Below, in pieces: positions 8,842 through 33,897 of a DNA stretch of 64,000 nucleotides (position 1 is the first letter of the stretch; each line of letters starts with the position of its first letter). The notes beneath the pieces were generated by a model. The model saw only the letters and a list, made by a program, of their open reading frames with translations, made no database searches and had not been told where the DNA came from. A program made the translations under genes and the position numbers. This DNA comes from Bacteroidaceae bacterium. Lineage in GTDB: Bacteria > Bacteroidota > Bacteroidia > Bacteroidales > Bacteroidaceae. The stretch is taken from positions 62,001 through 126,000 of the forward strand of contig JAFYOS010000025.1 of assembly GCA_017560125.1 (NCBI GenBank), in the 5' to 3' direction.

Positions 8842-8885
8842 AACCTACTATGCAGCATTAAATATATCACAAAAATTGCTATTTC
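8842..8885 (+). promoter_or_regulatory. Putative operator block upstream of the TonB receptor (copy 1)
   Basis: This 44-base block recurs at 19062-19105 before the metal-efflux genes with only about four substitutions and two single-base gaps. Sub-motifs common to both are AACCnACTAnGCA, TAAATATATCACAAA and AATTGCTATTTC. It ends in the -33 region. Confidence 0.7.
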
Positions 8886-8912
8886 GGCACATACAACATA
8901 TCTGTAATTTTG
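8882..8912 (+). promoter_or_regulatory. Promoter of the TonB receptor
   Basis: TTTC at 8882-8885 in the -33 position, a 19-base spacer and TAATTTTG at 8905-8912, followed by CAAAC. Spacing and flanks equal those of the promoter at 19102-19132. Confidence 0.7.
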
Positions 8913-8939
8913 CAAACGAAATAAAACGCCCAAACGATT

Positions 8940-11264
8940 ATGAAAAAGCTTGTCATAGCACTAATTTTTGCACTGTTGCACACAGCAGTGACCACAGCAA
9001 CGACACCCGTCCCCGAAAGCACAACCACCAACGAGCAGAAAAAAGGAGGATACATATCGGGACATGTCATCGAGAAGAAGAGCGAGGAGAACATACCCTT
9101 TGCCAACGTGTTTATAGTGGAAACAAAAGATGGAACCACCAGCAACGAATCGGGCCACTTCGAATTCAAGCAGATGCGCCCCGGCAAATACACCATCCGC
9201 GTGTCGGCAATGGGCTACCAGACGCAGACAAAAGAGGTGACCGTGAGCAAGGAGTATGCAACGGTGGTGCACTTCGAAATGATAGACGAGGCACTGAAGA
9301 TTGAGGAGCTCGTCGTATCGGCCAACCGCAACGAGGTGAGCCGTCGCGAGGCACCCGTAGTGGTAAACATCGCCGGCCCCAAGCTGATAGAGACCGTCAA
9401 CTCGACCGACCTTGCAAAAACGCTGAACTACCTGCCCGGACTGCGCGTGGAGAACAACTGCCAGAACTGTGGTTTCCCGCAGGTGAGAATAAACGGTCTC
9501 GAAGGCCCCTATTCGCAGATACTAATAAACAGCCGCCCTGTGGTGAGCGCCCTCAGCGGAGTATATGGCCTTGAGCAGATACCGGTGAACATGATTGAGC
9601 GCGTCGAGGTGGTGCGCGGTGGCGGTTCGGCGCTCTTCGGCGCAAACGCCGTGGGCGGAACAATAAACATCATCACCAAAGACCCCGTAAACAATTCGTT
9701 CCAGATATCGTCGAACCTATCGAACATGAACGGCGAGGCATGGGAGCAGTATATGGGTGCAAACGCATCGCTCGTGTCCAAGGACAATTCGTACGGCATT
9801 GCCATATACGAGAGCTATCGCAACCGCAACGCCTATGACCACGACGGTGACGGCTTTTCGGAACTGGGACAGCTGAACATGAACACCTTCGGACTGCGCA
9901 CATACTACCGTCCCACACACTCGAGCCGCATCAACCTCGAGTATCACACCACCAACGAAACCCGTCGAGGAGGAAACAAATTCGACCTGCAGCCTCACGA
10001 GGCCGACATTACCGAGCAGACCAAGCACATAATAAACAGCGGTGGCCTGTCGTACGATAAATTTTGGAACGACTACCAGCACAAGCTCTCGGTCTATGGT
10101 TCGTTGCAGCACATCGACCGCGACAGCTACTACGGAGCACAGCGCGACCCCTATGCCTATGGCAAGACCGATGACCTCACATGGGTAACAGGCGCCACAT
10201 ACACCGGCAGCATGGAAAAATGCCTCGTTTCGCCGGCCACATTTACCGGTGGCGTGGAGTTCCAGGAGAACAAGCTGCACGATGTGATGACCGGTTACAA
10301 CCGCGACATGAAGCAGGATGTACGCATAGCAAGTATGTTCGTACAGAATGAATGGGATTTGGATATCTTCTCGCTCCTTTTGGGCGCCCGCGTGGACAAG
10401 CACAACCTGATAGACAACCCCATACTGAGCCCGCGCGTGAACCTGCTGTACAAGCCCAACGACAACCTGCAGGCCCGACTGACCTACTCGACCGGATTCC
10501 GTGCTCCGCAGGCCTACGACGAGGATTTGCACGTGACAGCCGTTGGTGGCGAAGGCGTACAGATTGTGCTTGCCGACGGACTGAAAGAGGAGCGTTCGAA
10601 CAGCGTCAGCGGCTCTATCGACTGGAGCACAAAGCTGGGACACTGGCAATCGAACATATTGCTCGAAGGCTTCTACACCGGGCTCGACGACGTATTTGTG
10701 CTCGAGGATATAGGCAAGAACGAAGAGGGCTACCTGCTCAAGGAGCGACGCAACGGCAGCGGTGCAAAGGTATATGGCGTAAACCTCGAGGCCAAAATGG
10801 CTCATGGCAAGGACATCACCATACAATTTGGAGCAACAGCACAGCGCAGCCGCTACAATTGCGCCGAGGTGTGGAGCGAAGCGGATGGCGAAGCACTCAC
10901 CACACGCCGCATGCCCCGCACACCCGACTACTATGCCTACCTGACACTGACAACAGCGCCATTCAAGAATTTCGAAGCATCGCTCTCGGGCACATACACC
11001 GGCAAAATGATTGTCCCCCACTATGCGGGATACATAGAGAGCGACCGCATGGAGAATACACCCGAGTTCTTCGATGCAAACATAAAGCTAAGCTACACAT
11101 TCGTACTTCGCGACCACATTAAATTGCAGTTGAACACCGGCGTGCAGAATATCCTCGACAGCTTCCAGAAAGACCTCGACAAGGGCGAATTCCGCGACTC
11201 GGGATATTTCTACGGCCCCACACAGCCCCGCACATTCTTCGTGGGCATGAAGATTACAAACTAA
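8940..11264 (+). CDS. TonB-dependent outer-membrane receptor, probably metal-linked
   Basis: A 774-residue receptor. After a signal peptide (about 1-20) it has a carboxypeptidase-like beta domain (about 36-125: HVIEKKSEENIPFANVFIVE), a plug domain (about 140-245, with EVVRGGGSALFGANAVGGTI) and a 22-strand-type barrel to the C-terminus, which ends in an aromatic-rich strand (TFFVGMKITN). The plug contains NCQNCGFPQVRINGL, a CxxC pair that could bind a metal. TonB and an inner-membrane ExbBD complex, not encoded here, would power it. The shared promoter block with the RND efflux genes at 19148 suggests a common metal-responsive control. The ligand cannot be named from sequence; copper, zinc or a chelate are the candidates. 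Confidence 0.9.
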   Translation: MKKLVIALIFALLHTAVTTATTPVPESTTTNEQKKGGYISGHVIEKKSEENIPFANVFIVETKDGTTSNESGHFEFKQMRPGKYTIRVSAMGYQTQTKEVTVSKEYATVVHFEMIDEALKIEELVVSANRNEVSRREAPVVVNIAGPKLIETVNSTDLAKTLNYLPGLRVENNCQNCGFPQVRINGLEGPYSQILINSRPVVSALSGVYGLEQIPVNMIERVEVVRGGGSALFGANAVGGTINIITKDPVNNSFQISSNLSNMNGEAWEQYMGANASLVSKDNSYGIAIYESYRNRNAYDHDGDGFSELGQLNMNTFGLRTYYRPTHSSRINLEYHTTNETRRGGNKFDLQPHEADITEQTKHIINSGGLSYDKFWNDYQHKLSVYGSLQHIDRDSYYGAQRDPYAYGKTDDLTWVTGATYTGSMEKCLVSPATFTGGVEFQENKLHDVMTGYNRDMKQDVRIASMFVQNEWDLDIFSLLLGARVDKHNLIDNPILSPRVNLLYKPNDNLQARLTYSTGFRAPQAYDEDLHVTAVGGEGVQIVLADGLKEERSNSVSGSIDWSTKLGHWQSNILLEGFYTGLDDVFVLEDIGKNEEGYLLKERRNGSGAKVYGVNLEAKMAHGKDITIQFGATAQRSRYNCAEVWSEADGEALTTRRMPRTPDYYAYLTLTTAPFKNFEASLSGTYTGKMIVPHYAGYIESDRMENTPEFFDANIKLSYTFVLRDHIKLQLNTGVQNILDSFQKDLDKGEFRDSGYFYGPTQPRTFFVGMKITN

Positions 11265-11272
11265 CATAATAC

Positions 11273-11310
11273 AACAAGAGCAAGCGCCCCACGGGACGCT
11301 TGCTCTTGTT
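11273..11310 (+). terminator. Bidirectional terminator between the TonB receptor and nhaA
   Basis: A 14-base-pair stem (AACAAGAGCAAGCG against CGCTTGCTCTTGTT) with an inner CCC/GGG, placed between convergent genes. Confidence 0.85.
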
Positions 11311-11326
11311 ATTGTAACTGCTATTG

Positions 11327-12661
11327 CTATTTGTTCTTGGGAAGGAATAACTGCAACAACACGCAACCAAGGATAGCCGAGATGAACGAACCGCACAGGA
11401 TACCAAGCTTGGCCTGTCCCAACAGCTCGGCGCCCTTCACAGGCAGCGGCGAATACGAGAGGTCGGCAATAAATATCGACACGGTAAGACCGATACCGCA
11501 CAGTGCACATACACCGGCAAATGATTTCCAGTTGGCACCACTGGGCAATGATACAATCTTGCACTTGACAGCGACCCAGGCAAACAGCAGAACACCCACA
11601 AATTTACCTACAACGAGGCCGGCCATCACCGACATGCCCACACCCGAAACAAGGCTACTGAAATCCATCTCGGACAGATCGACGCCGATATTTGCAAAGG
11701 CGAACAAGGGGATAACCACATAGCCGATGAGCGAATGCAAGCCATCCTCGAGATGCTGCAAGGGGCTGATGAGCTTGTCGGCAGCCGACTCGACGCTCTT
11801 GAGCTTGTTTATCTCGTCGTGGCTCAGTATAATGGTGCTTTTCTTACTAGCATTTATTATGGGGAAGCTGCTGATGTTCTCCTTGATGCGTTTCAGGTAG
11901 TAACCAGTACCGTTTTGCAGTGTCGAAGGCACGCAGAAGGCTGTTATAACACCGGCGATGGTAGCATGAATACCCGAATTGAGCATTGCATACCACAGCA
12001 CCAATCCTGTGAGCAGATAGAAGGTCTTGCTGAACACCCTGAAGTAGTTACCGGCAACCATCACCACCACGCACAGCAACGACAGCAGCAGGAAGGCTGT
12101 GTGCAATTCCGATGTATAGAAAAGGGCTATCACTATGATGCCTCCAAGGTCGTCGGCAACGGCAAGAGCAGCCAAAAAGACCTTTAATCCGGTGGGCACA
12201 CGGGTGCTGAACACGGCAAGCACACCAAGCGAGAAGGCTATGTCGGTCGCCATGGGGATGGCTATACCACGCTGCATATCGGCATCGCCCGGGCACAGCA
12301 GCCAGAAGACGAGCACAGGGAAAAGCATTCCACCGCATGCACCGATTATTGGAAGCATGGCCTTTTTAGGCGAAGAGAGGTCGCCGACAAGGAATTCGCG
12401 TTTAATCTCCAGGCCCACCGACAAGAAGAAGAGTGCCATCAAAAAGTCGTTTATCACCTGCATCAACGTCATGTCGTGACCATTGTGACTGAAGAAATTA
12501 AATCCACCGATAGATACACTTACAATGCTCTGCCAGAAATCGAAATAGTACTCTTTAATGGAGCTGTTTGCACACACAAGCGCACAGACGGTCGCAATAA
12601 GAAGCAGCACACTGGCCGAGACATATTTTTTAAGCATGCTCATAAAACTGTAATTTGCCAT
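11327..12661 (-). CDS. nhaA: Na+/H+ antiporter NhaA
   Basis: Inner-membrane antiporter exchanging cytoplasmic Na+ for external H+, used in pH and salt homeostasis. From the ATG at 12661 the protein has 444 residues with about 12 hydrophobic helices. The unwound-helix aspartate pair lies in ALAVADDLGG at residues 170-171, and MATDIAFSLG near 137-146 is the other conserved segment. A hydrophilic loop around 295-330 is longer than in the E. coli protein, as is common in Bacteroidota. The start at 12661 is preferred because the upstream in-frame codons cross the promoter. The gene is a single transcription unit. Confidence 0.95.
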   Translation of the reverse strand: MANYSFMSMLKKYVSASVLLLIATVCALVCANSSIKEYYFDFWQSIVSVSIGGFNFFSHNGHDMTLMQVINDFLMALFFLSVGLEIKREFLVGDLSSPKKAMLPIIGACGGMLFPVLVFWLLCPGDADMQRGIAIPMATDIAFSLGVLAVFSTRVPTGLKVFLAALAVADDLGGIIVIALFYTSELHTAFLLLSLLCVVVMVAGNYFRVFSKTFYLLTGLVLWYAMLNSGIHATIAGVITAFCVPSTLQNGTGYYLKRIKENISSFPIINASKKSTIILSHDEINKLKSVESAADKLISPLQHLEDGLHSLIGYVVIPLFAFANIGVDLSEMDFSSLVSGVGMSVMAGLVVGKFVGVLLFAWVAVKCKIVSLPSGANWKSFAGVCALCGIGLTVSIFIADLSYSPLPVKGAELLGQAKLGILCGSFISAILGCVLLQLFLPKNK

Positions 12662-12690
12662 ACTGTTTATTTTGTTATTGAAATATTTCA

Positions 12691-12717
12691 CAAAAATAAA
12701 AAAATATATGATAACAA
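12691..12717 (-). promoter_or_regulatory. Promoter of nhaA
   Basis: On the minus strand TATTTTTG (complement at 12691-12698) lies about 30 bases before the ATG, with TTG (complement at 12715-12717) 16 bases further up. Confidence 0.5.
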
Positions 12718-12829
12718 CGACTATGTTTCGCCTTTTTTCGAGCGCAATTATTCGAACAGGCATAAACTACGAGCGACACCGCTGATATTTGCAGTGTCGC
12801 TCGCTGTATGAAGGAAAAGACGGCAGACC

Positions 12830-14860
12830 TTAGTATCTGTCCTCGGGGATGTGGCTCGACACCACGCCCTTGGGAACAAGTTCGAAGTAGTCGTGGTTGA
12901 ATTCGCGGTCGGGCGACTCGTCAACCTTCTTCATGCGCAACCAATGGTCGTTGTCGTCGAAGTATTTCTGTGTGATGATGATGCGTATTGCACCCAACTG
13001 GTCGCGCGCAAGGCCTTCGCTCGACTGGCGATAGTACGATGCAGGCGCCTTCATATATCCGTGGTTACGCATGGTTTTGTCGTTCTCCACGCCGTTGTCG
13101 TCGGTCTTGGCATCGGCAATCCAACCGATGCGAGGGTCGTCGGCGGTTATTTTAAGATCAACAGGTATGCCTGTCACTTTGCCATCGACATAGAACTGCG
13201 TGATGGCGCGGATGCTGGTTGCCGTGTAGCCCATGCGCAGCTCGTATGTACCCGCGGGAACGGGCGGCAGACGATATTCGAGGTCGTAATTTCCAACCAC
13301 GATGATTTCGTCGCCCATGTAGTTGCAACCCCAGCTATAGGGACAGAAATAGTGGAATTCGGTAGTGATGTCGTTGAATTTCATATTCTTGCAATATCCT
13401 GCAGGAATATTGTAGTCGCCATGGGTACACTCGCCACCGGTCTGCTCCCATCGTCCAAGGCGCACACCGTTGTTGGCGAGCTCGGGGAACAGGGACGACA
13501 CATCGAAGCGCATGCGCTCGTTGAGTACATTTCCCTTCATTTCGTCCTCGTTATATACAAGGATTTTGTCGATGGGGTGTATCACTCCGTTTAGGGCGCT
13601 CTGCACGAAGCCGGCATACTCCTCTTGCTCGGTAAATTCGCTAAGGGGAATGACGCGCACCTTCAGGTGCTTGTTCATTTCGTATTGCTTGGTCGAGCGA
13701 TGCGAGTAATTGAGATAGATATTCTGCACCTCGTTTACATCGTCGCTGCTGAGTGGCTTGCACACCTTCATCATAGTGCCAAGCATCGTTTCGTAGTAGT
13801 CCATGCGATCTACATTTGCCACCATACCCCTGTTGCTTTCGCTCTTGTAGTATGTGTGCGAAAGGCCGTAGAGGACTATCATATTGTAGTTGAGCTCTCT
13901 GTCGAGGAAGTGGTATGCGATGAATTTGTTCAGCGCGTTACGCGGGCTTTGCGGGTTGTCCCTATCCTCGGTGCCGTACCATTTCTCGGCAAACGCCTTC
14001 AGGTCGTCAAGGTTGTATATACCCTCCTTGGCAAATATGTCGTCGGTCTCTACGAAGGCGGTGAACTTGGTATAATAGGTGTGGGGGTAACGGGCTGTAT
14101 TTATTCCGCACGATTGGTCCTTGAAACAGGTTGCGGGTTCATAGCCCAATGTATATTCCTCGCCATTGAGCAGCGCTTTGTAGCTCTGCAGCTTCGTGTC
14201 GAAGCCGGTTTCTTGCAGCGCTGCCGACATGAGGCTGAAGTAGGGCTGGTCGGCAATCAGCTTGGGCAAGGTGTTGGTCGATGGAGCCACCGCCCTATCC
14301 ATAATGTGCACAATGCCATTCTCTACAAGGTTGTCGCCCTCTACTATTCCCGCCTGGTTGTTAATCATGATGCGGAACCTCTCGTCAACGGTGACGAAAC
14401 TTACGCTCAAGTAGCGGTCGTTGTAGTTACGGGTGTCGATAACGCCCTCGCCCATCTGTGCCATTTCGTAACCATAAGGTATTATGTGTGTCCTTGCAAT
14501 GACAATGGCCATCGAGTCGGTGAGATCCTCGAGGAAGGGCGAGGTGATACCCGTCCATGTGGGGTTGGGATCGTTCTTAGTGGAATCCCATGCCTCGAAC
14601 TGCTCGCGCAGATAAATATCTATCGCTTCGTCGTCGGGCAGGAAGAACGTGTATGTACCATACGTAGATAGCAGTCCGAACATATCGGCCTGCTTCAGAA
14701 TGGCAATCATCTTACTGAACCTATCCTCGCGATTGAGAATGAAGTCGGCAATCGTTTCGCCGGTAAATGTGTATCGATTGGATTTATCGATCTCGTCACT
14801 ACAAGCCGTAAAGGCCGTTCCAAGCATATAGGCAACCACCAAGGCACCTACTAATTTCAT
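12830..14860 (-). CDS. Fasciclin-domain surface lipoprotein
   Basis: A 676-residue lipoprotein. The start at 14860 (MKLVGALVVAYMLGTAFTAC) gives a signal peptide ending in a lipobox Cys. Two fasciclin-like repeats can be followed. The first (about 25-190) has FLPDDEAIDIYL and ends with NGIVHIMDRAV. The second (about 205-465) ends with NGVIHPIDKILVY. The C-terminal 200 residues form a beta-rich domain (GDEIIVVGNYDLEYRLPPVP, then YELRMGY) typical of Bacteroidota SusE- or fimbria-associated surface proteins. A role in adhesion or surface glycan binding is plausible but unproven. It lies downstream of a DUF4294 gene but has its own promoter. Confidence 0.8.
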   Translation of the reverse strand: MKLVGALVVAYMLGTAFTACSDEIDKSNRYTFTGETIADFILNREDRFSKMIAILKQADMFGLLSTYGTYTFFLPDDEAIDIYLREQFEAWDSTKNDPNPTWTGITSPFLEDLTDSMAIVIARTHIIPYGYEMAQMGEGVIDTRNYNDRYLSVSFVTVDERFRIMINNQAGIVEGDNLVENGIVHIMDRAVAPSTNTLPKLIADQPYFSLMSAALQETGFDTKLQSYKALLNGEEYTLGYEPATCFKDQSCGINTARYPHTYYTKFTAFVETDDIFAKEGIYNLDDLKAFAEKWYGTEDRDNPQSPRNALNKFIAYHFLDRELNYNMIVLYGLSHTYYKSESNRGMVANVDRMDYYETMLGTMMKVCKPLSSDDVNEVQNIYLNYSHRSTKQYEMNKHLKVRVIPLSEFTEQEEYAGFVQSALNGVIHPIDKILVYNEDEMKGNVLNERMRFDVSSLFPELANNGVRLGRWEQTGGECTHGDYNIPAGYCKNMKFNDITTEFHYFCPYSWGCNYMGDEIIVVGNYDLEYRLPPVPAGTYELRMGYTATSIRAITQFYVDGKVTGIPVDLKITADDPRIGWIADAKTDDNGVENDKTMRNHGYMKAPASYYRQSSEGLARDQLGAIRIIITQKYFDDNDHWLRMKKVDESPDREFNHDYFELVPKGVVSSHIPEDRY

Positions 14861-14888
14861 TATCTTTTTCACAATTCCGAATTTTGCA

Positions 14889-14920
14889 CAAAAATAATAA
14901 TGTTTTACAGCAAGTGCAAA
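14889..14920 (-). promoter_or_regulatory. Promoter of the fasciclin lipoprotein gene
   Basis: On the minus strand TATTTTTG (complement 14889-14896) with TTTG (complement 14917-14920) 20 bases upstream. The spacer contains TTTACAGCAAGT on the plus strand (14904-14915), repeated exactly before the next gene upstream (15582-15593). Confidence 0.6.
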
Positions 14921-14963
14921 TAAAAACGGAAAAAGCGTGCAAAACGGTTCCGCCGAACGGCAT

Positions 14964-15563
14964 TTACAAATCGCCGGAGAGCACCTGAATGACAACGCGC
15001 TCGGTGAGTGCATCCTCGCCCATGGCGTCGTAGTTCTTTTTCAGGCTGGCACCGAACAGCGATGCGAACGACTGATAAAAGGCGGCCTTGAAAGAGCCCA
15101 TAAAGAGCCTTATCAGCTGATAGGCATTCTGGTCGCACTGCCTATCGACGAGCTTTATGAGCAGCTTGCCCTGTCGCAACGACAATCTTTTCATGCGTGG
15201 GGTGTATATCTCTTTCAGTTCCTTTTCGAGAGCATCCAAATGTCGTTTTTTGGCCTTTTCATCGGGTAAAAGCTGTAACGATTCGTAGGTTTCGATGATT
15301 ATTCCGCGTATCTCGGTCGCCAGCGGTAGTGTCTTTTTCACATCATAAACAAGGCGGTCGTAGTTGCGTCTTTCGCGACGGCTCCTGAACTCGAGCGGCT
15401 TAAAAATATGAACCGTGGGAAGTTGGATGTATGGTATTTTCTCGCCCTTGTGCACTGCAGTGCCCACTATATAGAGCCTCTCGTTGTCGGTCTGTGCCGG
15501 CAAGGGCATCGACAACAAAAAGAGAAACGACAACAGCAGTATTTGTACAAAGGTGCTTTTCAT
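14964..15563 (-). CDS. Exported DUF4294 protein
   Basis: A 199-residue protein with a signal peptide (MKSTFVQILLLSFLFLLSMP, cleaved after about residue 24) and a charged alpha-helical body. The segment IQLPTVHIFKPLEFRSRRER followed by NYDRLVYDVKKTLPLA is the hallmark of DUF4294, a Bacteroidota family of unknown function with one or few copies per genome. The C-terminal half is helical and basic. It is transcribed in the same direction as the fasciclin gene 103 bases downstream. Confidence 0.75.
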   Translation of the reverse strand: MKSTFVQILLLSFLFLLSMPLPAQTDNERLYIVGTAVHKGEKIPYIQLPTVHIFKPLEFRSRRERRNYDRLVYDVKKTLPLATEIRGIIIETYESLQLLPDEKAKKRHLDALEKELKEIYTPRMKRLSLRQGKLLIKLVDRQCDQNAYQLIRLFMGSFKAAFYQSFASLFGASLKKNYDAMGEDALTERVVIQVLSGDL

Positions 15564-15568
15564 GCTTG

Positions 15569-15593
15569 CAAAAATAAACTATTTACAGCAAGT
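15569..15593 (-). promoter_or_regulatory. Possible promoter of the DUF4294 gene
   Basis: TATTTTTG on the minus strand (complement 15569-15576) lies only 5 bases before the ATG, so the transcript would be nearly leaderless. The upstream 12-mer TTTACAGCAAGT (plus strand, 15582-15593) is shared with the fasciclin promoter. Confidence 0.4.
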
Positions 15594-15652
15594 TGCCCCA
15601 TAACTTTATATTAAAAAAAGAAAAGAATGTACAGCATACGGATAAAAATCGC

Positions 15653-15660
15653 TATCTTCG
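15653..15660 (+). promoter_or_regulatory. Possible -7 motif of the ABC exporter operon
   Basis: TATCTTCG differs from the -7 consensus at one conserved position and lies 36 bases before the ATG at 15696. No clear -33 box. Confidence 0.4.
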
Positions 15661-15695
15661 CAACATATTTATAAACAGTTATAACAACAATTGGC

Positions 15696-17540
15696 ATGAA
15701 AGAGTTTTTCAAGGTTCTGAAGAGATACATTCCGCCTTACAAGAAAATGCTTCTATTTTCTTTGATATTCACATTCATTTCGGCAATACTGAACGTATTC
15801 TCGTTTATGATAATAATACCTATTTTGCAGATTCTCTTCAAAATAACCGACACCTCGGGCATACAGTTCATTCCGTGGAGCGAGATGAACTCCGAAAACA
15901 TAAAGGATGTAGCAATAAACAATGCCAATTATTATCTGAATGGTTTCATCGAGAGCTACGGAGCTTCGATGACACTGATGCTGTTGGGTATATTCCTCAT
16001 TGTGATGACACTGCTGAAGACAGCAAGCTACTTCGGCTCGTCAGCATCAATCATTCCGTTGCGTACAGGCATTGTGCGCGACATACGCACACAGCTCTAC
16101 AACAAGGTATTGAGCCTGCCGCTCGGTTTCTTCTCGAAGGAGCGCAAGGGCGACATCATTGCCCGCATGAGTGGCGACGTAGTGGAGGTGGAGAACTCCA
16201 TTTCGGGCTCGATAGACATGCTCATAAAGAACCCCATCTACATTGTGATATATTTCACCACGCTCATTTACCTCAGCTGGGAGCTCACCCTTTTCACAAT
16301 CACCGTATTCCCCGTTCTTGGATGGATTATGGGCCTTGTAGGAAGAAAGCTCAAGCAGAAATCGCTGGTAGCACAGGCCAAACTGAGCGAAACTATGTCG
16401 CAGATGGAAGAGACGCTGGGCGGCTTGCGCATTGTGAAGGCCTTCCTTGCCGAAAAGAAGATGTCGAACCGCTTCCTGAAGGTGAGCAACGAGCTCCGCA
16501 ACGCAACCATGCGCGTAACAATGCGTCAGGCGATGGCACACCCCGTGAGCGAATTCCTTGGTACATGCGTAATTGTCATTGTGCTGTGGTTCGGCGGCAC
16601 ACTTATATTGGGCAATAATTCGCCCATCTCGGCGCCGGCCTTCATCTACTATCTGACCATTCTCTACAGCATCATCAACCCGCTGAAGGAGTTCTCGAAG
16701 GCATCGTACAACATCCCCCGCGGATTGGCGTCTATGGAGCGCATCGACAAGATACTCAATAGCGAGAACCCCATTTGCGACAAGAAAGAGGCTGTTGCCA
16801 TCAAGAACCTCGAGAAGGAAATTGAGCTGCGCGACCTCTGCTTCTCGTACGACGGCGAAAAGAGCGTCCTGAAAAATATCAACCTCACCATAGGCAAGGG
16901 CAAGACCGTGGCACTCGTGGGCCAGTCGGGTTCGGGAAAATCGACGCTCGTCGATCTCATTCCCCGTTACTACGATGTCACCTCGGGCGAGGTGCTCATC
17001 GACGGTGTGAACGTGAAAGACATGACCATTAAATCGTTGCGTTCGCTCATCGGTAACGTAAACCAGGAGGCGATACTGTTCAACGACTCCTTCTATAACA
17101 ACATCACCTTCGGTGTGGAGAACGCGACAATGGAGCAGGTCATCGAGGCGGCCAAGATAGCCAATGCCCACGACTTCATCATGGCCACCGAAAACGGCTA
17201 CGACACCAACGTAGGCGACCGTGGCTGTCTGCTGTCGGGTGGTCAGCGCCAACGCATCAGCATTGCCCGCGCCATACTGAAGAACCCTCCCATACTCATC
17301 CTCGACGAGGCCACATCGGCACTCGACACCGAGTCGGAGCGCTTGGTGCAGGAGGCACTCGAACGCCTGATGAAGACAAGAACCACCATCGCCATCGCCC
17401 ACCGCCTATCGACCATCAAGAACGCCGACGAGATCTGCGTGCTGATGGAGGGACGAATAGTGGAACGCGGCAAGCACGACGAGCTGTTGCAGCTGAACGG
17501 AGTGTATAAACGTCTGAACGACATGCAAAGCCTCGCCTAG
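15696..17540 (+). CDS. MsbA-like ABC exporter (fused permease and ATPase)
   Basis: A 614-residue half-transporter that would work as a homodimer in the inner membrane. Six membrane helices fill about 1-330. The ATPase domain has Walker A GQSGSGKST near 409, the signature LLSGGQRQRIS near 512 and Walker B ILILDEATSALD near 533, ending with the H-loop AHRLSTI. MsbA relatives flip lipid A-core or other lipids. It heads a three-gene run with a LOG-family gene 3 bases downstream and a PfkB kinase, a common Bacteroidales arrangement whose logic is unclear. Multidrug export is an alternative. Confidence 0.88.
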   Translation: MKEFFKVLKRYIPPYKKMLLFSLIFTFISAILNVFSFMIIIPILQILFKITDTSGIQFIPWSEMNSENIKDVAINNANYYLNGFIESYGASMTLMLLGIFLIVMTLLKTASYFGSSASIIPLRTGIVRDIRTQLYNKVLSLPLGFFSKERKGDIIARMSGDVVEVENSISGSIDMLIKNPIYIVIYFTTLIYLSWELTLFTITVFPVLGWIMGLVGRKLKQKSLVAQAKLSETMSQMEETLGGLRIVKAFLAEKKMSNRFLKVSNELRNATMRVTMRQAMAHPVSEFLGTCVIVIVLWFGGTLILGNNSPISAPAFIYYLTILYSIINPLKEFSKASYNIPRGLASMERIDKILNSENPICDKKEAVAIKNLEKEIELRDLCFSYDGEKSVLKNINLTIGKGKTVALVGQSGSGKSTLVDLIPRYYDVTSGEVLIDGVNVKDMTIKSLRSLIGNVNQEAILFNDSFYNNITFGVENATMEQVIEAAKIANAHDFIMATENGYDTNVGDRGCLLSGGQRQRISIARAILKNPPILILDEATSALDTESERLVQEALERLMKTRTTIAIAHRLSTIKNADEICVLMEGRIVERGKHDELLQLNGVYKRLNDMQSLA

Positions 17541-17543
17541 GCC

Positions 17544-18086
17544 ATGAAGAACATCGGTCTTTTCTGCGCGGCATCGGAAACGATAGAGAGCATCTATGTG
17601 GATGCAGCTCGCGAGCTCGGTACCCTGTTGGGCCAAGGTGGCCACACATTGATCTATGGCGGCGCGGCAAAGGGGCTGATGGAGGCGACGGCAAAGGCGG
17701 CAAAAAGCAGTGGCGCACGCATAGTGGGTGTAGTCCCCAACCTGCTTGTAGAGCGCGGCTGCGTGAGCACCCTGCTCGACGAACAGATTACGGTAGCCAA
17801 CCTCAGCCAACGGAAAGATGCCATACTCGAGCGCAGCGACCTGCTTATAGCCATGCCCGGAGGCATAGGCACGCTCGACGAGGTATTCCACGTGATGGCA
17901 GCCGCCACTATCGGATACCACAAGAAAAAGGTGGTCTTCTACAACGTAAACAATTTTTGGGACAGCATGGCAACGCTACTTGCCGACTACAAAGCAAAAG
18001 GTTTTCTGCGTGGCGAGCTCGACCACTACTGTTGCTTCGCCGGCAATTACGATGAGCTGAAAGAGATAATAGAGCGCGAAATATGA
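17544..18086 (+). CDS. LOG-family nucleotide phosphoribohydrolase (TIGR00730 type)
   Basis: A 180-residue Rossmann-fold protein, the normal family length. The motif PGGIGTLDE at about 105-113 is the LOG signature that holds the phosphoribosyl group and catalytic Glu. GGAAKGLM near 39 belongs to the same pocket. Family members split nucleoside 5'-monophosphates (classically cytokinin ribotides) into base and ribose 5-phosphate. In bacteria the usual substrate is thought to be AMP-like nucleotides in salvage. It starts 3 bases after the ABC exporter stop and overlaps the next gene by 4 bases, so the three are surely co-transcribed. Confidence 0.9.
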   Translation: MKNIGLFCAASETIESIYVDAARELGTLLGQGGHTLIYGGAAKGLMEATAKAAKSSGARIVGVVPNLLVERGCVSTLLDEQITVANLSQRKDAILERSDLLIAMPGGIGTLDEVFHVMAAATIGYHKKKVVFYNVNNFWDSMATLLADYKAKGFLRGELDHYCCFAGNYDELKEIIEREI

Positions 18087-19009
18087 AGAAAATAATAGGA
18101 ATAGGAGAAACCATACTCGATATACTTTTCAAAAACGACCAACCCGTTAAGGCCGTGCCCGGCGGGTCGGTATTCAACAGCATGATATCGCTTGGCCGCA
18201 TGGGGCTCGACGCCCACATCGTAAGCGAGGTCGGCAACGACCACGTAGGCGACATTGTAATAAAATTCCTCGATGAAAACGGAGTAAATTCAGCATCGGT
18301 ATATCGTTTCGCCGACGCCAAATCGCCCGTTTCGCTCGCCTTCCTGAACGACAGGAACGACGCCGAATATATCTTCCACAAGGAGAGCACCCAGAACCAT
18401 CTGCAAATAGATTTCCCCGAAATAGAGAAGGGCGACATAGTGCTCTATGGTTCCTATTTTGTGCTGAACCCGCAACTGCGCCCCAAGGTGAAAGCCTTCC
18501 TGGAATATGCACGCAACTGCGACGCCACCCTCTACTACGACGTAAATTTCCGCAAAAACCACGAGGCGGAAAAGCTGAAGCTCGCAGAAGCGCTCATCGA
18601 AAATCTTGAATACGCCGACATTGTACGCGGTTCGAAGGACGATTTCGGTGTGCTGTACGGCATGGACGACGCCGACAAGATTTACCGCGAAAAAATAAAA
18701 TTTTACTGCCCCACCTTCATCTGCACCGGAGGCGACGAAGGAGTGACATTGTTCACCCGCCACCACAGCGAAAAATACAGCGTGCCGCAGGTCGATGTAG
18801 TGAGCACCGTCGGAGCCGGCGACAATTTCAATGCAGGTGTAATCTATGGCCTCGCAACCATGGGACTGTCCCGCGAGGAGCTCGATGCAATGACTCCGGA
18901 GCAATGGAACAGAGCCATCGGATGTGGTCTCGATTTCAGTGCACATGCCTGCACGCTCGTCGATAACTACATAGAAAAAGATTGGGCCGATAATTACAAA
19001 AACCGATAG
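18083..19009 (+). CDS. PfkB-family carbohydrate kinase
   Basis: A 308-residue ribokinase-fold enzyme that would phosphorylate a sugar or nucleoside. The N-terminal GETILDILF and PGGSVFNSMISLGRMG segments bind the substrate; STVGAGDNFNAGVIYG at about 243-258 is the PfkB signature with the catalytic Asp and anion hole. Its ATG overlaps the stop of the LOG gene (ATGA). The LOG product releases ribose 5-phosphate and a base, so a nucleoside or ribose kinase would fit the context, but fructokinase is just as compatible with the sequence. Confidence 0.85.
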   Translation: MKKIIGIGETILDILFKNDQPVKAVPGGSVFNSMISLGRMGLDAHIVSEVGNDHVGDIVIKFLDENGVNSASVYRFADAKSPVSLAFLNDRNDAEYIFHKESTQNHLQIDFPEIEKGDIVLYGSYFVLNPQLRPKVKAFLEYARNCDATLYYDVNFRKNHEAEKLKLAEALIENLEYADIVRGSKDDFGVLYGMDDADKIYREKIKFYCPTFICTGGDEGVTLFTRHHSEKYSVPQVDVVSTVGAGDNFNAGVIYGLATMGLSREELDAMTPEQWNRAIGCGLDFSAHACTLVDNYIEKDWADNYKNR

Positions 19010-19061
19010 AGTGCGCGTTCAGGAAAATGCGTAGCACCTTACGGCATCGCCGCATAACACG

Positions 19062-19105
19062 AACCCACTAAGCAAAATAAATATATCACAAATAATTGCT
19101 ATTTC
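19062..19105 (+). promoter_or_regulatory. Putative operator block upstream of the metal-efflux operon (copy 2)
   Basis: A near copy of 8842-8885, with the same length (44 bases) and the same position relative to the promoter. AACCCACTAAGCA, TAAATATATCACAAA and AATTGCTATTTC are the recognisable parts. No other copy was seen in the window. Confidence 0.7.
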
Positions 19106-19132
19106 CGCGTTGATAATTAACCCGTAATTTTG
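19102..19132 (+). promoter_or_regulatory. Promoter of the metal-efflux operon
   Basis: TTTC at 19102-19105, a 19-base spacer and TAATTTTG at 19125-19132, followed by CAAAC. The layout is identical to the TonB receptor promoter. The spacers themselves differ, which points to selection on the boxes rather than recent duplication. Confidence 0.7.
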
Positions 19133-19147
19133 CAAACAAAAACGGAT

Positions 19148-20767
19148 ATGAAGAACATATATATATTCCTATTTGCCTTTACATTGTCAATGACATTGAC
19201 AAATTGCGGCGAACACAGCCACGGTCACAACCACTCCCACGAGGAGGGCCATGCACACGAAGCGTGCTCACACGACCATTCACACGCCGCAGACGCACAT
19301 GAGCATAAACATGAACATACACATGATACACACAACCACACCGCGTCAGAAGCAGCCCACAGCCACGACGAGGAGCCCATTATGCTCACCGCATATGGCG
19401 AGACACTTGAGCTGTTTGCCGAGGTTGGCAAATTGCAAGCTGGCGAGGAGAGCTTCATACTGGCCCATCTGACCACACTGAGCAATTTCAAGCCGCTCGA
19501 TATCCCCGAGGTCACCTTCACCCTTACGGTTAACGGCACAGCATCGGAATATACCGCCGCAAGACAGAAACCCGGAGTATATCGTTGCCACATAAAACCC
19601 ACAAAAGGCGGCAAGGGCACCATCACATGCAAAGCCACCATCAATGGCACACCTACAACCGTTGCCACACCCGTGTCGGTGTGTAGCGGCGGCCATCACC
19701 ACCACGAACACGAGGGCGACAACCACGAGCATGGCACCAACATGGTTACATTCCCCAAGGAGCAGAGCTGGAAAATAGATTTCGCCACCGCAGCAGTCGA
19801 AAACCGCACCATAAACAACGTGGTCAAAGGCGTGGGCAAGGTATCAAACGCCCCCGAAAATGTAACAACCCTTGTAGCCGCAACAAACGGTAAGGTATTC
19901 TATGGCAACAGCGTGGCTGTAGGCCGCAACGTGAAGGCCGGCGAATCGCTCTTTGCCCTTGAAACCGGCGACGTCACCGACAGCAATGCAGCCATCAAAT
20001 ATGCCGAGGCCGAAAGCCGTTACAACTACACCAAGGCCGAGTATGAGCGCAAGGCCGAGCTTGTAAAGAGCAAAGTGGTTTCGCTCAGCGATTTCCAGGC
20101 CACAGAGGCCGACTACCTTCAGGCAAAGGCCGTTTACGAAAACCTGAAAAAGAATTTCAACGGCGGCAAAATGCTGCTCAAATCGCCCGTCACAGGCTAC
20201 ATATCGGATATAGCAGTCGAGGCCGGCGACTATGTCACCGAGGGCACTCCCCTTGCCACATTGCAACGCGACGGCGAGCTCAAGCTCTTCTGCGAGGTGT
20301 CGGTAAGACACGCAGCCGCACTGCGCAACCTGAACGATGTGAATATCGAGCTGAACGATGGCCGTTGCTACTCGCTAGCCGAGGCCGAGGGACGCATCGT
20401 AGGTGTCGGTCGCGCCATACAGAACGATTGCAACATGATACCCGTCACCATCATGGTCAAAAACCTCGACGGAGTGGTACCCGGCAACATAGTGAACATG
20501 TACATGATATCACCTGCCGATGGAATGAATATCGTCGTACCGCGCACAGCGCTTGTCGAGGAGATGGGACGCTTCTTTGTATTCGTGCAGCACACCCCCG
20601 TGATGTTCGAAAAACGCCCCGTCATCATCGGCGTCAGCGATGGCAAAAACATACAGCTGCTCAACGGCGTGAAGCCCGGAGAGCGTATCGTCACCACTGG
20701 TGCCATTTCGCTCAAGCTGGCACAAGGCACCGGAGCACTCGACCCCCACGCGGGACACGTACACTAA
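19148..20767 (+). CDS. His-rich periplasmic adaptor lipoprotein of a heavy-metal RND pump (CusB/CzcB type)
   Basis: The ATG at 19148 is chosen because an upstream in-frame TTG lies inside the -7 box. The 539-residue protein has a lipoprotein signal (TLSMTLTNC) followed by an unusual stretch of some 20 His among Asp, Glu and Ala (about 22-78), then a beta domain (about 80-175), a second short His cluster (GGHHHHEHEGDNHEHG near 181-196) and a membrane-fusion-protein core: barrel-sandwich halves around VTTLVAATNGKVFYGNSVAV and KSPVTGYISDIAVEAGDYVT, a short coiled coil between them and a C-terminal beta barrel. Such adaptors collect Zn, Co, Cd, Ni, Cu or Ag ions in the periplasm and pass them to the RND pump. 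The His clusters favour Zn/Co/Ni over Cu, where Met is typical. Confidence 0.9.
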   Translation: MKNIYIFLFAFTLSMTLTNCGEHSHGHNHSHEEGHAHEACSHDHSHAADAHEHKHEHTHDTHNHTASEAAHSHDEEPIMLTAYGETLELFAEVGKLQAGEESFILAHLTTLSNFKPLDIPEVTFTLTVNGTASEYTAARQKPGVYRCHIKPTKGGKGTITCKATINGTPTTVATPVSVCSGGHHHHEHEGDNHEHGTNMVTFPKEQSWKIDFATAAVENRTINNVVKGVGKVSNAPENVTTLVAATNGKVFYGNSVAVGRNVKAGESLFALETGDVTDSNAAIKYAEAESRYNYTKAEYERKAELVKSKVVSLSDFQATEADYLQAKAVYENLKKNFNGGKMLLKSPVTGYISDIAVEAGDYVTEGTPLATLQRDGELKLFCEVSVRHAAALRNLNDVNIELNDGRCYSLAEAEGRIVGVGRAIQNDCNMIPVTIMVKNLDGVVPGNIVNMYMISPADGMNIVVPRTALVEEMGRFFVFVQHTPVMFEKRPVIIGVSDGKNIQLLNGVKPGERIVTTGAISLKLAQGTGALDPHAGHVH

Positions 20768-20786: not shown

Positions 20787-23700
20787 ATGTTGAATGCAAT
20801 TATAAAATTTTCGCTCAACAACAAGCTGGCCATAATGCTGGCCGTGCTTCTTGTAACCATAGGCGGAATATATTCGGCACAGAAGATTGAAGTGGATGTA
20901 TTCCCCGACCTCACATCGCCCACCGTTGTAGTGCTCACCGATGCCACAGGCATGGCACCCGAGGAGGTGGAACGACTGGTAACCTTCCCCATAGAGACTG
21001 CCGTAAACGGTGCCACCAACGTGCGCCGCGTACGCTCCACATCGTCGCAGGGTTTCTCGTTCGTGTGGGTGGAATTCGACTGGGGCGTTGATATTTACAA
21101 AGCGCGACAGGTGGTAAGCGAAAAGCTGGTGACACTTGCCGACGCGCTGCCACAAGGAATAACCCCTATGCTCGCTCCGCAATCGAGCGTGATGGGCGAA
21201 ATATTATTCGTGGGCCTGCAAGCCGACAGCACATCACTCATGGAGGTGCGCACACTGGCCGAATGGGTACTGAAACCGGCCATACTGGCTACGGGCGGAG
21301 TGTCGCAAGTAACAATCATAGGCGGCGACTTCAAGCAATATCAGGTGCTTGCCGACGCCGACCGCATGGCGCTCTACGGCGTAACCATGCAGGAGCTCGA
21401 GGCCACCGTTGCGGCAATGAGTAACAACACCGCCGGAGGAGTGCTGCGTGAATATGGCAACGAATATACCCTGCGCGGAATGGGCCGCACCAACGACATA
21501 GAGGAACTTGGACGCACCCCGGTGAAAATGCACAACGGCCGTCCCATAGTGGTGGCCGACATTGCCGAGGTGTGCATAGCAGGTGCCGTACGCAAAGGAT
21601 ATGCATCGCAGGACGCATCGCCCGCGGTAATCCTCTCTATATCGAAGCAGCCCGGAATAAACACGCTGAACGTAACAAAGAACATAGAGCGCAACCTTGC
21701 AAGCGTGGCTAAATCGCTGCCCGCCGATGTAAAGGTCGATACCAAAATATTCCGACAGGCCGACTACATACACTCGTCGGTGAACAACGTGAGCCGCGCG
21801 CTCATCGAGGGTGCAATATGTGTCGTGCTCGTGCTCTTCCTGTTCCTTGTGAGCCTGCGCACAACGGTAATATCGATAGTAGCCATCCCCCTGTCGTTGC
21901 TCGGCACGGTGATAGCGCTCTATCTGTTGGATATGGATATAAACACCATGACCTTGGGCGGTATGTGCATAGCCATAGGCTCGCTCGTCGATGACGCCAT
22001 CATCGACGTGGAGAACGTGTATAAACGACTGCGCGAGAACCACGCACGCCGTCCCGAGGAGCGCCTATCGACCTTCCGCATTGTATTCGAGGCCTCGTCG
22101 GAGATACGCTCCTCTATAATACATGCGACGCTCATCATCATGGTTACATTCATGCCGCTGTTCTTCCTTAGCGGCCTCGAGGGCAGAATGCTGAAGCCGC
22201 TGGGCATCGCCTACCTTATCTCGCTGCTGATGTCGCTCATTGTGGCCATGACCGTAACCCCGCTCATGTGCAAATGGATGCTCTCGGGCGAGAAATACCT
22301 GCAACGCCAGGAGCGCAAAAACTGGGTAGAGAGCCACTTGCTCACAAAATATGCAGCATCGCTCGAAAAGGCGCTCGCACACGGCAAGGCCGTAATAGCA
22401 ACAACCGTAACGCTGTTCGTGGTAGCACTTATATTGTTCGCCTTCATGGGACGCAGCTTCCTTCCCGAGTTCAACGAGAACGCCCTGACCATTGCAGCCG
22501 TGTCGCGCCCCGGTGTATCGCTCGACGAGGCACATCGCATAGGCAACCTCATAGAGAAGGAACTGCTTCAGATACCCGAGGTTACGAGCACCGCACGCCG
22601 CACCGGACGAGGCGAGCTCGACGAGCACTCACAGACCTCGAACGGCGCCGAGATTGATGTAAATTTCGAGCTCGACAAACGTTCCAAGAGCGAATTCCTT
22701 CACGAGGTACGCAGCCGCATGGCAACCATCCCCGGCGTCATCACCTCGGTGGGACAGCCCCTTGAGCATCGCATAGACCACATGGTATCGGGCACACAGG
22801 CCGACCTCGCCATTAAGGTATTCGGCCCCGACCTGAGCACACTGTTCACCATAGGAAACAAGGTAAAAGAGATATTGGGCAGCATGCCCGAAGTGGTCGA
22901 TCTGAACGTGGAACAGCAGGTGGAAACGCCGCAGCTGCAAATACGTGCCGACCGCGAACGCCTTGCCCACTATGGAATAACCATGGAGCAGTTCAACGGC
23001 TTCATCGAGGCGGCCTTCCCCGGCAAGAAGCTGGGCGAGGTGTACGAGGAGGAGCGCAGCTTCGACCTTATACTGCGACTCACACACGACAACACCGACA
23101 GCATGGAAGGGGTGAAAAATGCCCTTATAGACACACACAACGGCGACAAAGTGCCCCTTGAGGCAGTGGCAAGCGTAGTGTCGTGCGGTGGTCCGGCAGC
23201 CATCAGCCGCGAAAACGTACAGCGCAAGGTGGTGGTGTCGGCCAACATAGCAAGCGGCAATGTAAACGGAGTGGTTGATAACATAGTGGAACTGCTCGAC
23301 AGGGAGCTGCCGCTGGACGAGGGATACCGACTGGAATATGGCGGTCAGTTCGAAAGCGCACAGAGCGCTGCACGCACCCTGTGGCTCACATCGTTCGTAG
23401 CACTGTGCATCGTCTTCACATTGCTCTGCGGCGAGTTCAAAAGCATGGCGCTGTCGGCTGTGGTAATGCTCAACCTGCCCTTGGCGCTCATTGGCGGTGT
23501 CATTGCCACCTACTTCACATCGTGCGTAATGAGCATCCCCGCCATCATAGGCCTTATAACGCTCTTCGGAATAGCCACACGCAACGGTATATTGCTTGTG
23601 TCGCGCTATCAGCATCTGCGTGCCGAGGGCAAAAGCCTCGACGAGGCTGTCATGCTGGGCTCGACCGACCGTCTTACCCCCATTCTGATGACCGCCTTCA

Positions 23701-23867
23701 CATCGGCGCTTGCACTTGTGCCTATGGTCATCAACGGCGCATCGTCGGGTAACGAAATACAGAGCCCCATGGCGATAGTCGTTCTTGGCGGTCTGTTCAC
23801 ATCCACACTGCTGAACATATATGTCATCCCCATTGTATATAAATGGCTGATACGCAGAAACGGCTAA
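20787..23867 (+). CDS. Heavy-metal efflux RND pump (CusA/CzcA family)
   Basis: A 1026-residue inner-membrane pump with 12 helices and two large periplasmic loops, driven by proton entry. The N-terminus MLNAIIKFSLNNKLAIML and the segment VDVFPDLTSPTVVV are typical of the HME-RND subfamily. Helix 4 carries GSLVDDAIIDVEN, the charged relay. The start at 20787 is preferred over 20772 because a purine-rich GGAGGA (20774-20779) sits 7 bases before it, a rare Shine-Dalgarno-like site for this phylum. It follows the adaptor gene directly (19 bases). No outer-membrane factor gene follows; a strong terminator closes the operon. Confidence 0.92.
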   Translation: MLNAIIKFSLNNKLAIMLAVLLVTIGGIYSAQKIEVDVFPDLTSPTVVVLTDATGMAPEEVERLVTFPIETAVNGATNVRRVRSTSSQGFSFVWVEFDWGVDIYKARQVVSEKLVTLADALPQGITPMLAPQSSVMGEILFVGLQADSTSLMEVRTLAEWVLKPAILATGGVSQVTIIGGDFKQYQVLADADRMALYGVTMQELEATVAAMSNNTAGGVLREYGNEYTLRGMGRTNDIEELGRTPVKMHNGRPIVVADIAEVCIAGAVRKGYASQDASPAVILSISKQPGINTLNVTKNIERNLASVAKSLPADVKVDTKIFRQADYIHSSVNNVSRALIEGAICVVLVLFLFLVSLRTTVISIVAIPLSLLGTVIALYLLDMDINTMTLGGMCIAIGSLVDDAIIDVENVYKRLRENHARRPEERLSTFRIVFEASSEIRSSIIHATLIIMVTFMPLFFLSGLEGRMLKPLGIAYLISLLMSLIVAMTVTPLMCKWMLSGEKYLQRQERKNWVESHLLTKYAASLEKALAHGKAVIATTVTLFVVALILFAFMGRSFLPEFNENALTIAAVSRPGVSLDEAHRIGNLIEKELLQIPEVTSTARRTGRGELDEHSQTSNGAEIDVNFELDKRSKSEFLHEVRSRMATIPGVITSVGQPLEHRIDHMVSGTQADLAIKVFGPDLSTLFTIGNKVKEILGSMPEVVDLNVEQQVETPQLQIRADRERLAHYGITMEQFNGFIEAAFPGKKLGEVYEEERSFDLILRLTHDNTDSMEGVKNALIDTHNGDKVPLEAVASVVSCGGPAAISRENVQRKVVVSANIASGNVNGVVDNIVELLDRELPLDEGYRLEYGGQFESAQSAARTLWLTSFVALCIVFTLLCGEFKSMALSAVVMLNLPLALIGGVIATYFTSCVMSIPAIIGLITLFGIATRNGILLVSRYQHLRAEGKSLDEAVMLGSTDRLTPILMTAFTSALALVPMVINGASSGNEIQSPMAIVVLGGLFTSTLLNIYVIPIVYKWLIRRNG

Positions 23868-32635: not shown

Positions 32636-32990
32636 ATGCCTCGCAAGCTACTACATATAATCCTTTTGCTATTCATCGGCACAGCGGCCTTCGCCCAATC
32701 GCCATTGGACACCCTCGCCATGCGTGCCATCATGGTCAATCAGCTCTTCCCGCAAGAAAGAGTGTATCTGCACTTCGATAACACGGCCTATTATCTTGGC
32801 GAAACCATGTGGTTCAAGGCCTACACCACCAGCGGCCTTGCCGACAACGAAAAGCCCATAAGCCGCGTGCTCTATGTGGAGCTGTGTGCGCCCGAGGGCT
32901 ACGTGGTGGAAACGAAAAGGCTGCTGCATAGGGCAGCGAGTTTGGCAAGGTGAATGCCAACGAGTTCTAAGTGCTCAAATTCGATAAATA
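32636..32990 (+). pseudogene. Decayed N-terminal copy of the MG2-like gene
   Basis: The first 95 codons match the N-terminus of the preceding protein: signal peptide, then QERVYLHFDNTAYYLGETMW and LYVELCAPEGYVVETK. After that the frame is lost. Residual similarity (a GCC and a GSEF-like peptide corresponding to KGCCSGEF in the intact copy) appears in two other frames with internal stops, and about 850 codons of the parent are missing. The first 106 codons are still open, so a short secreted peptide could be made, but the break makes it a pseudogene by any normal standard. Confidence 0.8.
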
Positions 32991-33091: not shown

Positions 33092-33895
33092 ATGAAACGA
33101 CTGATATATACCATTATAGCCGCCATGTGCATCGTGTCGTGCAGCGTCGCGCCCGAGAGCAGAAAGCCATCTATAGCCGTAACGCTGGAGCCCTACCGCT
33201 TTGCGGTGGAGGCTATTGCCGGCGACGACTGGGAGGTGATGAGCATTGTGCCCAAAGGGAGCAGCCCCGAAACCTTCGACCTCACACCCGCGCAGATGAT
33301 AGGGCTTTCCAAGTGCAACGCCTATTTTTCGGTAGGAGGACTGGGATTCGAGGAGGCGTGGTGCAAGAGGATTGCCGATGCAATACCGTCGCTGACCATC
33401 ATCGATACATCGGAAGACATTGAGCGCATCGACAGCGACCCGCATCTGTGGACATCGCCCGACAATATGGCGGTGATAACCACCAATATATGCAAGGCAA
33501 TGTGCCGCATAGACAGCGCCAACTGCGACGCATACATCCAGCGCCTGCAAAGGACATTGCAGATGATAAACGAAACCGATTCGCTGATAGACAACGCCAT
33601 CGACGGCGGCAGCTTTGTTATATTCCATCCCTCGCTCACCTACTTTGCAAGGGCCTACGGATTGGAGCAAATAGTGATAGAGGAGCACGGAAAAGAGCCC
33701 TCGGTGGCACATGTGAAAGAGGTGATAGACATGGCGCGCAGCCACAAAGCATGCAAGGTGCTCATACAATCGGAGTTCGACAAGAGCCACGCCGCTGCCA
33801 TAGCCAAGGAGATTGATGGCGACGTAGTGCAGATAAACCCATTAAGCTACGACTGGCAGCAGGAGATGTTGCAGATAGCCGAAAAACTGAAGTGA
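33092..33895 (+). CDS. Zinc/manganese-type ABC transporter binding lipoprotein (ZnuA family)
   Basis: A 267-residue lipoprotein (IIAAMCIVSC lipobox) of the cluster A-I metal-binding family, which captures Zn2+ or Mn2+ in the periplasm. DPHLWTSPDNM (His near residue 118), FHPSLTYFARAYGL (His near 179) and the C-terminal IQSEFDKSHAAAIAKEI match family landmarks. The first His ligand, normally in an EPH-type motif, is replaced: here the segment reads SSPETFDLTPAQM. The His-rich loop of zinc-specific members is also missing. Metal binding may thus be through fewer His, or the ligand may differ. The ATPase gene follows 2 bases later. Confidence 0.85.
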   Translation: MKRLIYTIIAAMCIVSCSVAPESRKPSIAVTLEPYRFAVEAIAGDDWEVMSIVPKGSSPETFDLTPAQMIGLSKCNAYFSVGGLGFEEAWCKRIADAIPSLTIIDTSEDIERIDSDPHLWTSPDNMAVITTNICKAMCRIDSANCDAYIQRLQRTLQMINETDSLIDNAIDGGSFVIFHPSLTYFARAYGLEQIVIEEHGKEPSVAHVKEVIDMARSHKACKVLIQSEFDKSHAAAIAKEIDGDVVQINPLSYDWQQEMLQIAEKLK

Positions 33896-33897
33896 CA

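Follow-up and report, generated by a model that had tools for sequence, protein, structure and literature searches.

Why do the genes of an outer-membrane receptor and of a heavy-metal efflux pump, 10 kb apart, carry almost the same sequence upstream? The question is raised by a 64,000-nucleotide (nt) stretch of the genome of a Bacteroidaceae bacterium (assembly GCA_017560125.1, contig JAFYOS010000025.1, positions 62,001 to 126,000), hereafter the window. A 44-bp block is found at 8842-8885, 5′ of the gene for the TonB-dependent receptor TBDT1 (8940-11264), and again at 19062-19105, 5′ of an efflux operon encoding a His-rich RND periplasmic adaptor (19148-20767) and a CusA/CzcA-family heavy-metal RND permease (20787-23867, start inferred); blocks, promoter elements and genes are all on the forward strand. 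The block is most likely an operator-promoter of Bacteroidetes type, in which a sigma-ABfr core is preceded by a 15-16-bp inverted repeat (dyad) centred about 31 nt 5′ of the −7 element, that is, at about −41. The two copies would be the same regulated promoter, of an iron-type class, which the pump probably acquired in this lineage.

When aligned, the two blocks are identical in 39 of 45 columns, the remainder being four substitutions and a one-position gap in each sequence, as the preliminary description of the window had reported. Each is followed by 19 nt (8886-8904 and 19106-19124) and then by TAATTTTGCAAAC (8905-8917 and 19125-19137); the 19-nt spacers are identical at only 8 of 19 positions, and the equal spacing between differing spacers noted earlier is likewise confirmed. 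Aligned locally, the two upstream regions score 69, whereas dinucleotide shuffles (n = 2000) average 18.8 and reach 33 at most, and none of the 2000 shuffled pairs equals the block match. In a blastn comparison of the window with itself, the block pair ranks third among the 45 repeats listed (E 6.6e-6), the two better pairs being one coding duplication. The search of the whole genome that had been called for returned the two known copies: the pattern AAATATATCACAAA-N0-4-TTGCTATT occurs at two places in 2,612,092 bases, both of them the block copies, and its reversed control at none. A similar exact pattern is present in one of 121 genomes of the family, the source genome alone; exact searches find nothing beyond it because the sequence of the dyad drifts (TAACAA, TAGCAA, and TCACAA half-sites).

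Promoters of the main Bacteroidetes sigma factor carry TAnnTTTG at −7 and TTTG near −33, according to the available text of PMC7366714. The sequence TAATTTTG, at 8905-8912 in the receptor promoter and 19125-19132 in the efflux promoter, fits the −7 consensus perfectly and places both in the sigma-ABfr class. The stretch TAATTTTGC, common to both copies, had been described as part of a special motif; it belongs to the core promoter instead, TAATTTTG being an instance of the phylum's general −7 element (TAnnTTTG; PMC7366714). These promoters have a normal spacing and differ from the standard sigma-ABfr promoter by an added conserved dyad and by a poor −33 element: 19 nt 5′ of the −7 element both carry TTTC, one mismatch from TTTG (8882-8885 in the receptor promoter; PMC7366714). 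The operator-like dyad reads TCACAA-AAA-TTGCTA in the receptor promoter (8867-8881; 3-nt centre, 30.5 nt 5′ of −7) and TCACAA-ATAA-TTGCTA in the pump promoter (19086-19101; 4-nt centre, 31 nt 5′ of −7). A position of about −41 from the transcription start is typical of activator sites. Upstream of the dyad, an ACTATG element (8847-8852, 14 nt 5′ of it) in the receptor promoter has the counterpart ACTAAG (19067-19072, 13 nt 5′) in the pump promoter. Three sub-blocks had been proposed as binding sites; the element that recurs is the dyad TCACAA-N3/4-TTGCTA, while TATTTC falls in the −33 region and an ACTAT-type element 13-14 nt 5′ of the dyad is found in 10 of 35 receptor promoters, the window's included. 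A riboswitch or RNA leader was rejected, as Rfam at gathering scores gives a single match in the window, a tRNA at 53313, and so were sigma-70 type promoters, which are not the type used by Bacteroidetes.

The strongest evidence that both promoters form one class comes from a profile search in which they were held out. We compared 44 genomes of the genus, one per species (labelled G###, the source genome being G000; loci are labelled L###). Orthologues of TBDT1, with 72-88% identity, are present in 38 of the 44, counting the window's own and one fragment, and the upstream region was read in 35; G134 (locus cut short), G125 (contig edge), and G149 (fragment) were left out. Profile R1 was built from 27 of 29 congener TBDT1 promoters, G131 and G153 being left out. 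In the source genome, the highest score of R1 belongs to the pump promoter (34.3 bits, E 5.2e-8, match 19067-19135) and the second highest to the receptor promoter (25.9 bits, E 2.4e-5). The third match, at 17.2 bits and with an operator score of 14.0, lies inside a long open reading frame on the opposite strand, and lower matches precede feoAB (16.3 bits) and a permease-like gene (16.2 bits). In the window only the two block promoters match. This ranking agrees with the earlier suggestion of a common regulator: there appears to be one promoter class and, probably, one regulator. R1 also recovered the receptor site of G134, at 33.4 bits.

On the receptor side, most congeners retain both the dyad and the core, with their spacing fixed, ahead of the orthologous TonB receptor gene. 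Anchored on TTTG, these promoters carry, with the spacing unchanged, TARCAA-N4-TTGYTA or a close variant, and 25 of 35 (own included) score at least 17, against 2 of the 1472 shuffles counted, from which 278 without a TTTG anchor are excluded; as the windows were selected by the same score and then counted, the shuffles were treated alike. The receptor promoter of the window reaches 15.9, owing to the 3-nt centre of its dyad. With a matrix restricted to the 18 nt of the operator, without the core promoter, 24 of the 35 TBDT1 regions score above all of 40 shuffles, the TBDT1 set being the one on which the matrix was trained. Among core promoters, an operator score of 12 is reached by 20 of 34 at TBDT1 loci, by none of 132 further ones at loci L109-L179 (71 loci, congeners mixed with other genera), by none of 53 at loci of an S24-family gene discussed below, and by none of 58 at feoAB loci. 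The three that reach 8 among the 132, duplicates counted once, are TBDT1 promoters themselves; another 72 core promoters, from loci chosen with R1 (21 at 8 or more, 8 at 12 or more), are no control. A strict pattern of dyad plus −7 element occurs at 13 places in the 44 genomes, namely eight TBDT1 promoters, the pump promoter of the window, two places beside feoAB, and two in coding sequence; its reversed control occurs at none. As described before, neither the interval between receptor and pump nor their immediate flanks showed a recognisable regulator gene, going by the list of open reading frames and Pfam on part of them, and the AraC-type gene of the window lies far away, at 56829. Nor was a regulator seen next to the receptor in the readable TBDT1 neighbourhoods of congeners, over 1.5 kb per side. 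Five TBDT1 loci outside the 44 genomes (L142, L143, L154, L159, and L168) carry another dyad, equally far from −7, whose TACCTA- or TACCCA-type half is combined with TGGGTA or TAGGTA; in L143 it reads TACCTAT-AA-ATGGGTA, at the same place. In G123 (L012), about 600 nt with near-identical repeats separate the TBDT1 promoter (G123:C20:97028) from its gene.

The pump side is different. The permease scores 768.1 bits against TIGR00914 (cutoff 701.45, scanned from 20700) and the adaptor, an RND_mfp protein of CzcB/CusB type, 148.8 bits against TIGR01730 (cutoff 94.9), which makes the operon a member of the HME-RND efflux systems (CzcBA/CusBA); it differs from these in its receptor-type promoter. 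An outer-membrane factor gene was not noticed directly beside the pump, none having been searched for. The adaptor has a good match in 43 of the 44 genomes, and 39 loci were used (G125, which is cut, G136, G153, and G157 left out). R1 found a single match among these loci, that of the window species; the other 38 upstream stretches had none. Anchored site scores, which cover the 32 of 39 upstream regions with a TTTG anchor, give 19.9 for the window and 13.2 for the next best; the G149 region was mis-extracted for this scoring, and the R1 search covered its whole locus. The comparison across genomes that had been suggested is split accordingly: the block is kept before the receptor but not before the pump, where it was found at 1 of 39 loci. 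The receptor-efflux regulon proposed earlier probably holds in this species, which has the shared promoter, but is not supported as a conserved unit of the genus.

In the other 38 loci the adaptor is preceded by a protein that we call X, by a kinase, or by other sequence. The five closest congeners by receptor and adaptor identity (G143, G123, G131, G121, and G148) have the order PfkB kinase, X, adaptor, X nearly abutting the kinase. X is a small His/Cys protein, DUF6769-like and below the Pfam cutoff. The source genome has no room for it: the receptor-type promoter occupies the interval between the PfkB-family kinase (18083-19009, forward strand) and the adaptor, and X has no match in that genome, although the query for X found matches in no more than 16 of the 44 genomes. 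Judged by loose motifs, X lies just upstream of the adaptor in 16 of the 39 loci, the kinase end is close without X in 15 (own included), and neither is seen in 8. Gene X would have been lost in this lineage, and a receptor-type promoter would have taken over the adaptor-RND operon. Six of the 39 adaptor promoters (L072, L075, L076, L077, L078, and L080) share another dyad, TTTGMAAC...TTTCAAA, close to −7, which is probably the site of another regulator. X, ending in ...RAPP, also precedes the TonB receptor gene in 36 of the 71 loci L109-L179, as it precedes the efflux adaptor in the 16 genus loci, and this gene order links receptor and pump.

To which regulon would such a promoter belong? In congeners, related and often weaker sites are found before feoAB, before TonB receptors of siderophore type, and before a hemerythrin-LuxR regulator; they suggest an iron-starvation regulon, and the promoter set as a whole points to iron uptake rather than to zinc or copper. 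The feoAB loci were taken from 30 of the 40 genomes with a match. R1 matches at E ≤0.1, on either strand, in 25 of these 30 loci, and 62 of the 63 matches lie within about 460 nt upstream of feoAB; some congener sites are stronger than that of the source genome. In G122, where TBDT1 was not found, a 34.2-bit site precedes a second feoAB. By coordinates, R1 sites also precede a second TonB receptor of about 800 amino acids at at least ten places in at least nine genomes, three of which were read; the two receptors scanned are both closest to the myxochelin-receptor model MxcH, below its cutoff. Weak sites, each of 18.6-19.8 bits, precede a fused hemerythrin-GerE regulator in G121 and G123 and ahpC in G020. 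Further weak matches among those listed have no iron link, and some R1 or pattern matches, located within coding sequence or ahead of unrelated genes, give the assignment no support. Many congener feoAB gaps (e.g., L243, L244, and L316) hold a second R1-like promoter pointing away, often without a convincing open reading frame; possibly it drives a non-coding transcript.

The same kinds of genes make up the iron-starvation stimulon of Porphyromonas gingivalis, Prevotella intermedia, and Bacteroides thetaiotaomicron as reported in PMC10434189, where iron depletion raises feoB, ahpC, a hemerythrin with a CdhR-type regulator, TonB receptors, and RND cation efflux pumps in at least one of the three. 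The pumps that rise are BT2038-40 (2.5-3.3 fold) and BT3968-72 (2.3-5.0 fold), with PG0063-65 as counterpart; the likeness of the window pump to BT3968 and BT2038 is one of gene kind. The stimulon differs from our promoter set in consisting of transcript changes without an operator, the available text of PMC10434189 having 0 occurrences of "palindrom", "motif", or "binding site".

The regulator itself may be encoded elsewhere in the genome. In the source genome feoAB, a hemerythrin of 234 amino acids (PF01814; G000:C12, L348 4345-5049), and a GerE/LuxR-type protein of 197 amino acids (PF00196; 5042-5635) stand in a row, an order also seen in the four congeners read, and a hemerythrin-type match is present in 38 of the 44 genomes. 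This is the domain pair of CdhR and its hemerythrin partner in P. gingivalis, where CdhR is a LuxR-family activator of hmuYR. The likeness has limits: here the pair lies directly behind feoAB, its binding to the dyad is putative, and several feoAB dyads, being of TAGTYAT-NN-ATGACTA type, are unlike those of the receptor. The sites of LuxR/NarL proteins are 16-bp dyads (7-2-7 repeats), and we counted both this and the L143 dyad in favour of the feoAB-linked pair, which, judged by analogy with CdhR, is a possible if tentative candidate. A protein other than this pair and the one considered next is quite possible, short of being probable.

The alternative that survives best names an HTH protein of the S24-peptidase family, which would bind one and the same dyad to regulate both the receptor gene and its own, in response to a signal that need not be iron. 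Its gene, which in L285 spans 126-755, is present in 41 of the 44 genomes, own included, in single copy in most of the genus, and it is found in G138, where the LuxR-type candidate is not. Of the 41, 30 loci were searched with R1, and 14 have a match in the promoter of this gene at E ≤0.1, for the most part stopping short of the −7 columns. The operator-only matrix was applied to 39 of the 41 upstream regions (one of them, L249, mis-extracted), and 24 score above all of 40 shuffles. These congener sites are related by descent, so that they do not amount to 24 independent cases, and they may represent an operator of the S24 gene's own. In the clade of the window its site reads TAGCCA-N4-TGGCTA, against TCACAA-N3/4-TTGCTA before receptor and pump. 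The gene had no match in G121, G131, and G149. As a regulator of the receptor class, the S24 protein is a doubtful choice. In L277 (G124) and other S24 upstream regions, a second dyad, TAGCCA-N4-TGGCTA, lies further upstream and points to a divergent target.

The preliminary description had favoured a regulator responding to Zn, Cu, Co, Ni, or Cd, that is, control of both genes by metal excess. The His-rich adaptor, the CusA/CzcA permease above its cutoff, and the CxxC motif (NCQNCGFPQVRINGLEGPYSQ) in the plug of TBDT1, a receptor composed of CarbopepD_reg_2, Plug, and beta-barrel domains, would suit a regulator of Zn/Cu/Co type, and a weak R1 match of 17.3 bits in G157 precedes a Cu/Zn efflux permease (SO_0444-type). 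Such a regulator is nonetheless improbable, as the pumps of congeners lack this promoter at the adaptor loci read (1 of 39 has it, the window's), six adaptor promoters bear the different dyad TTTGMAAC...TTTCAAA, and the congener genes that do carry related sites, among them feoAB and siderophore-type receptors, point to iron.

The absence of the promoter from every other adaptor locus read, and the likeness that extends into the upstream part of the block, would also follow if the receptor promoter had recently been duplicated by neutral events, with a copy landing before the pump and no shared control in practice. However, the spacers have diverged but not the dyad, the −7 element, or the spacing, and of the two copies the pump's is the better fit to the genus profile; this is a pattern of selection and not of a fresh copy, and we regard neutral duplication as very unlikely. 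That the match reflects nothing but a strong core promoter of the phylum in AT-rich sequence, without a specific regulator, would explain why its most constant columns include the −7 element and why the matched stretches are 71-72% A+T, but it is scarcely credible in view of the operator-only scores, the counts at other core promoters, and the held-out ranking in the source genome.

We return to the capture of an iron-type promoter by the pump. In the mechanism that we infer, iron shortage would activate (or derepress) a dyad-binding protein, a dimeric activator; the receptor would bring in a metal complex and Feo Fe(II), and in this species the pump would be made together with the receptor. 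Induced uptake would let in wrong metals, according to the logic of mis-metallation, and a CzcBA-type pump could expel the other divalent metals admitted by non-specific induced uptake. The most complete version, read from sequence, is an undescribed Bacteroidaceae class of iron-starvation operator with a dyad at about −41, bound by the feoAB-linked hemerythrin/LuxR pair, whose promoter was captured by a CzcBA-type exporter and would couple metal import to the export of mis-imported metal; in all its parts together we offer it with marked reserve, as rather unlikely.

Several results weigh against this reading. On the pump side, the dyad centre has 4 nt and that of the receptor 3 nt, the promoter is known from one genome (one genome per species), X is missing from the 15 loci mentioned above and not from the source genome uniquely, and the adaptor loci reach 1-1.5 kb upstream, so that an operon promoter lying further away in congeners would have escaped notice. 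R1 includes the core promoter, which may drive its weak matches (14-20 bits), and its search of the source genome scored 113 of 1203 first-look candidates under strict filters. The 17.2-bit site precedes a gene without known iron link, which we take to be nucleotidyltransferase-like. The operator alone exceeds all 40 shuffles in only 13 of the 29 feoAB regions scored, and in the source genome feoAB reaches 16.3-16.9 bits with R1 and an operator score of 4.1 (p 0.175), not above shuffles. The S24 site of the source genome scores 6.5 on the operator matrix. G138, which is 97% complete, has no feoAB or hemerythrin-LuxR match and yet a 40.4-bit TBDT1 site. Finally, other RND pumps, BT0678-80 and BT4693-95, fall in iron depletion in the data of PMC10434189.

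An operator-promoter with its regulon is a known kind of system; what appears to be new here is the operator itself and the lineage-specific capture of its promoter, and we found no paper naming this operator in the literature searched. A dyad at a fixed position before an outer-membrane receptor, together with its related sites, provides a concrete operator with two named candidate regulators, and the promoter before the exporter an example of regulon rewiring. Such captures may help to explain why some RND cation pumps rise in Bacteroidetes under iron starvation.

Elsewhere in the window, a gene for a ZnuA-like zinc-binding protein followed by an ABC ATPase gene (33092-34575) has no match to the shared promoter upstream. 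Shortly before it, a gene of 979 codons (29683-32622) has a fragment of itself repeated just 3′ (about 32636-32970), with 81-90% identity between 29797-29974 and 32747-32918.

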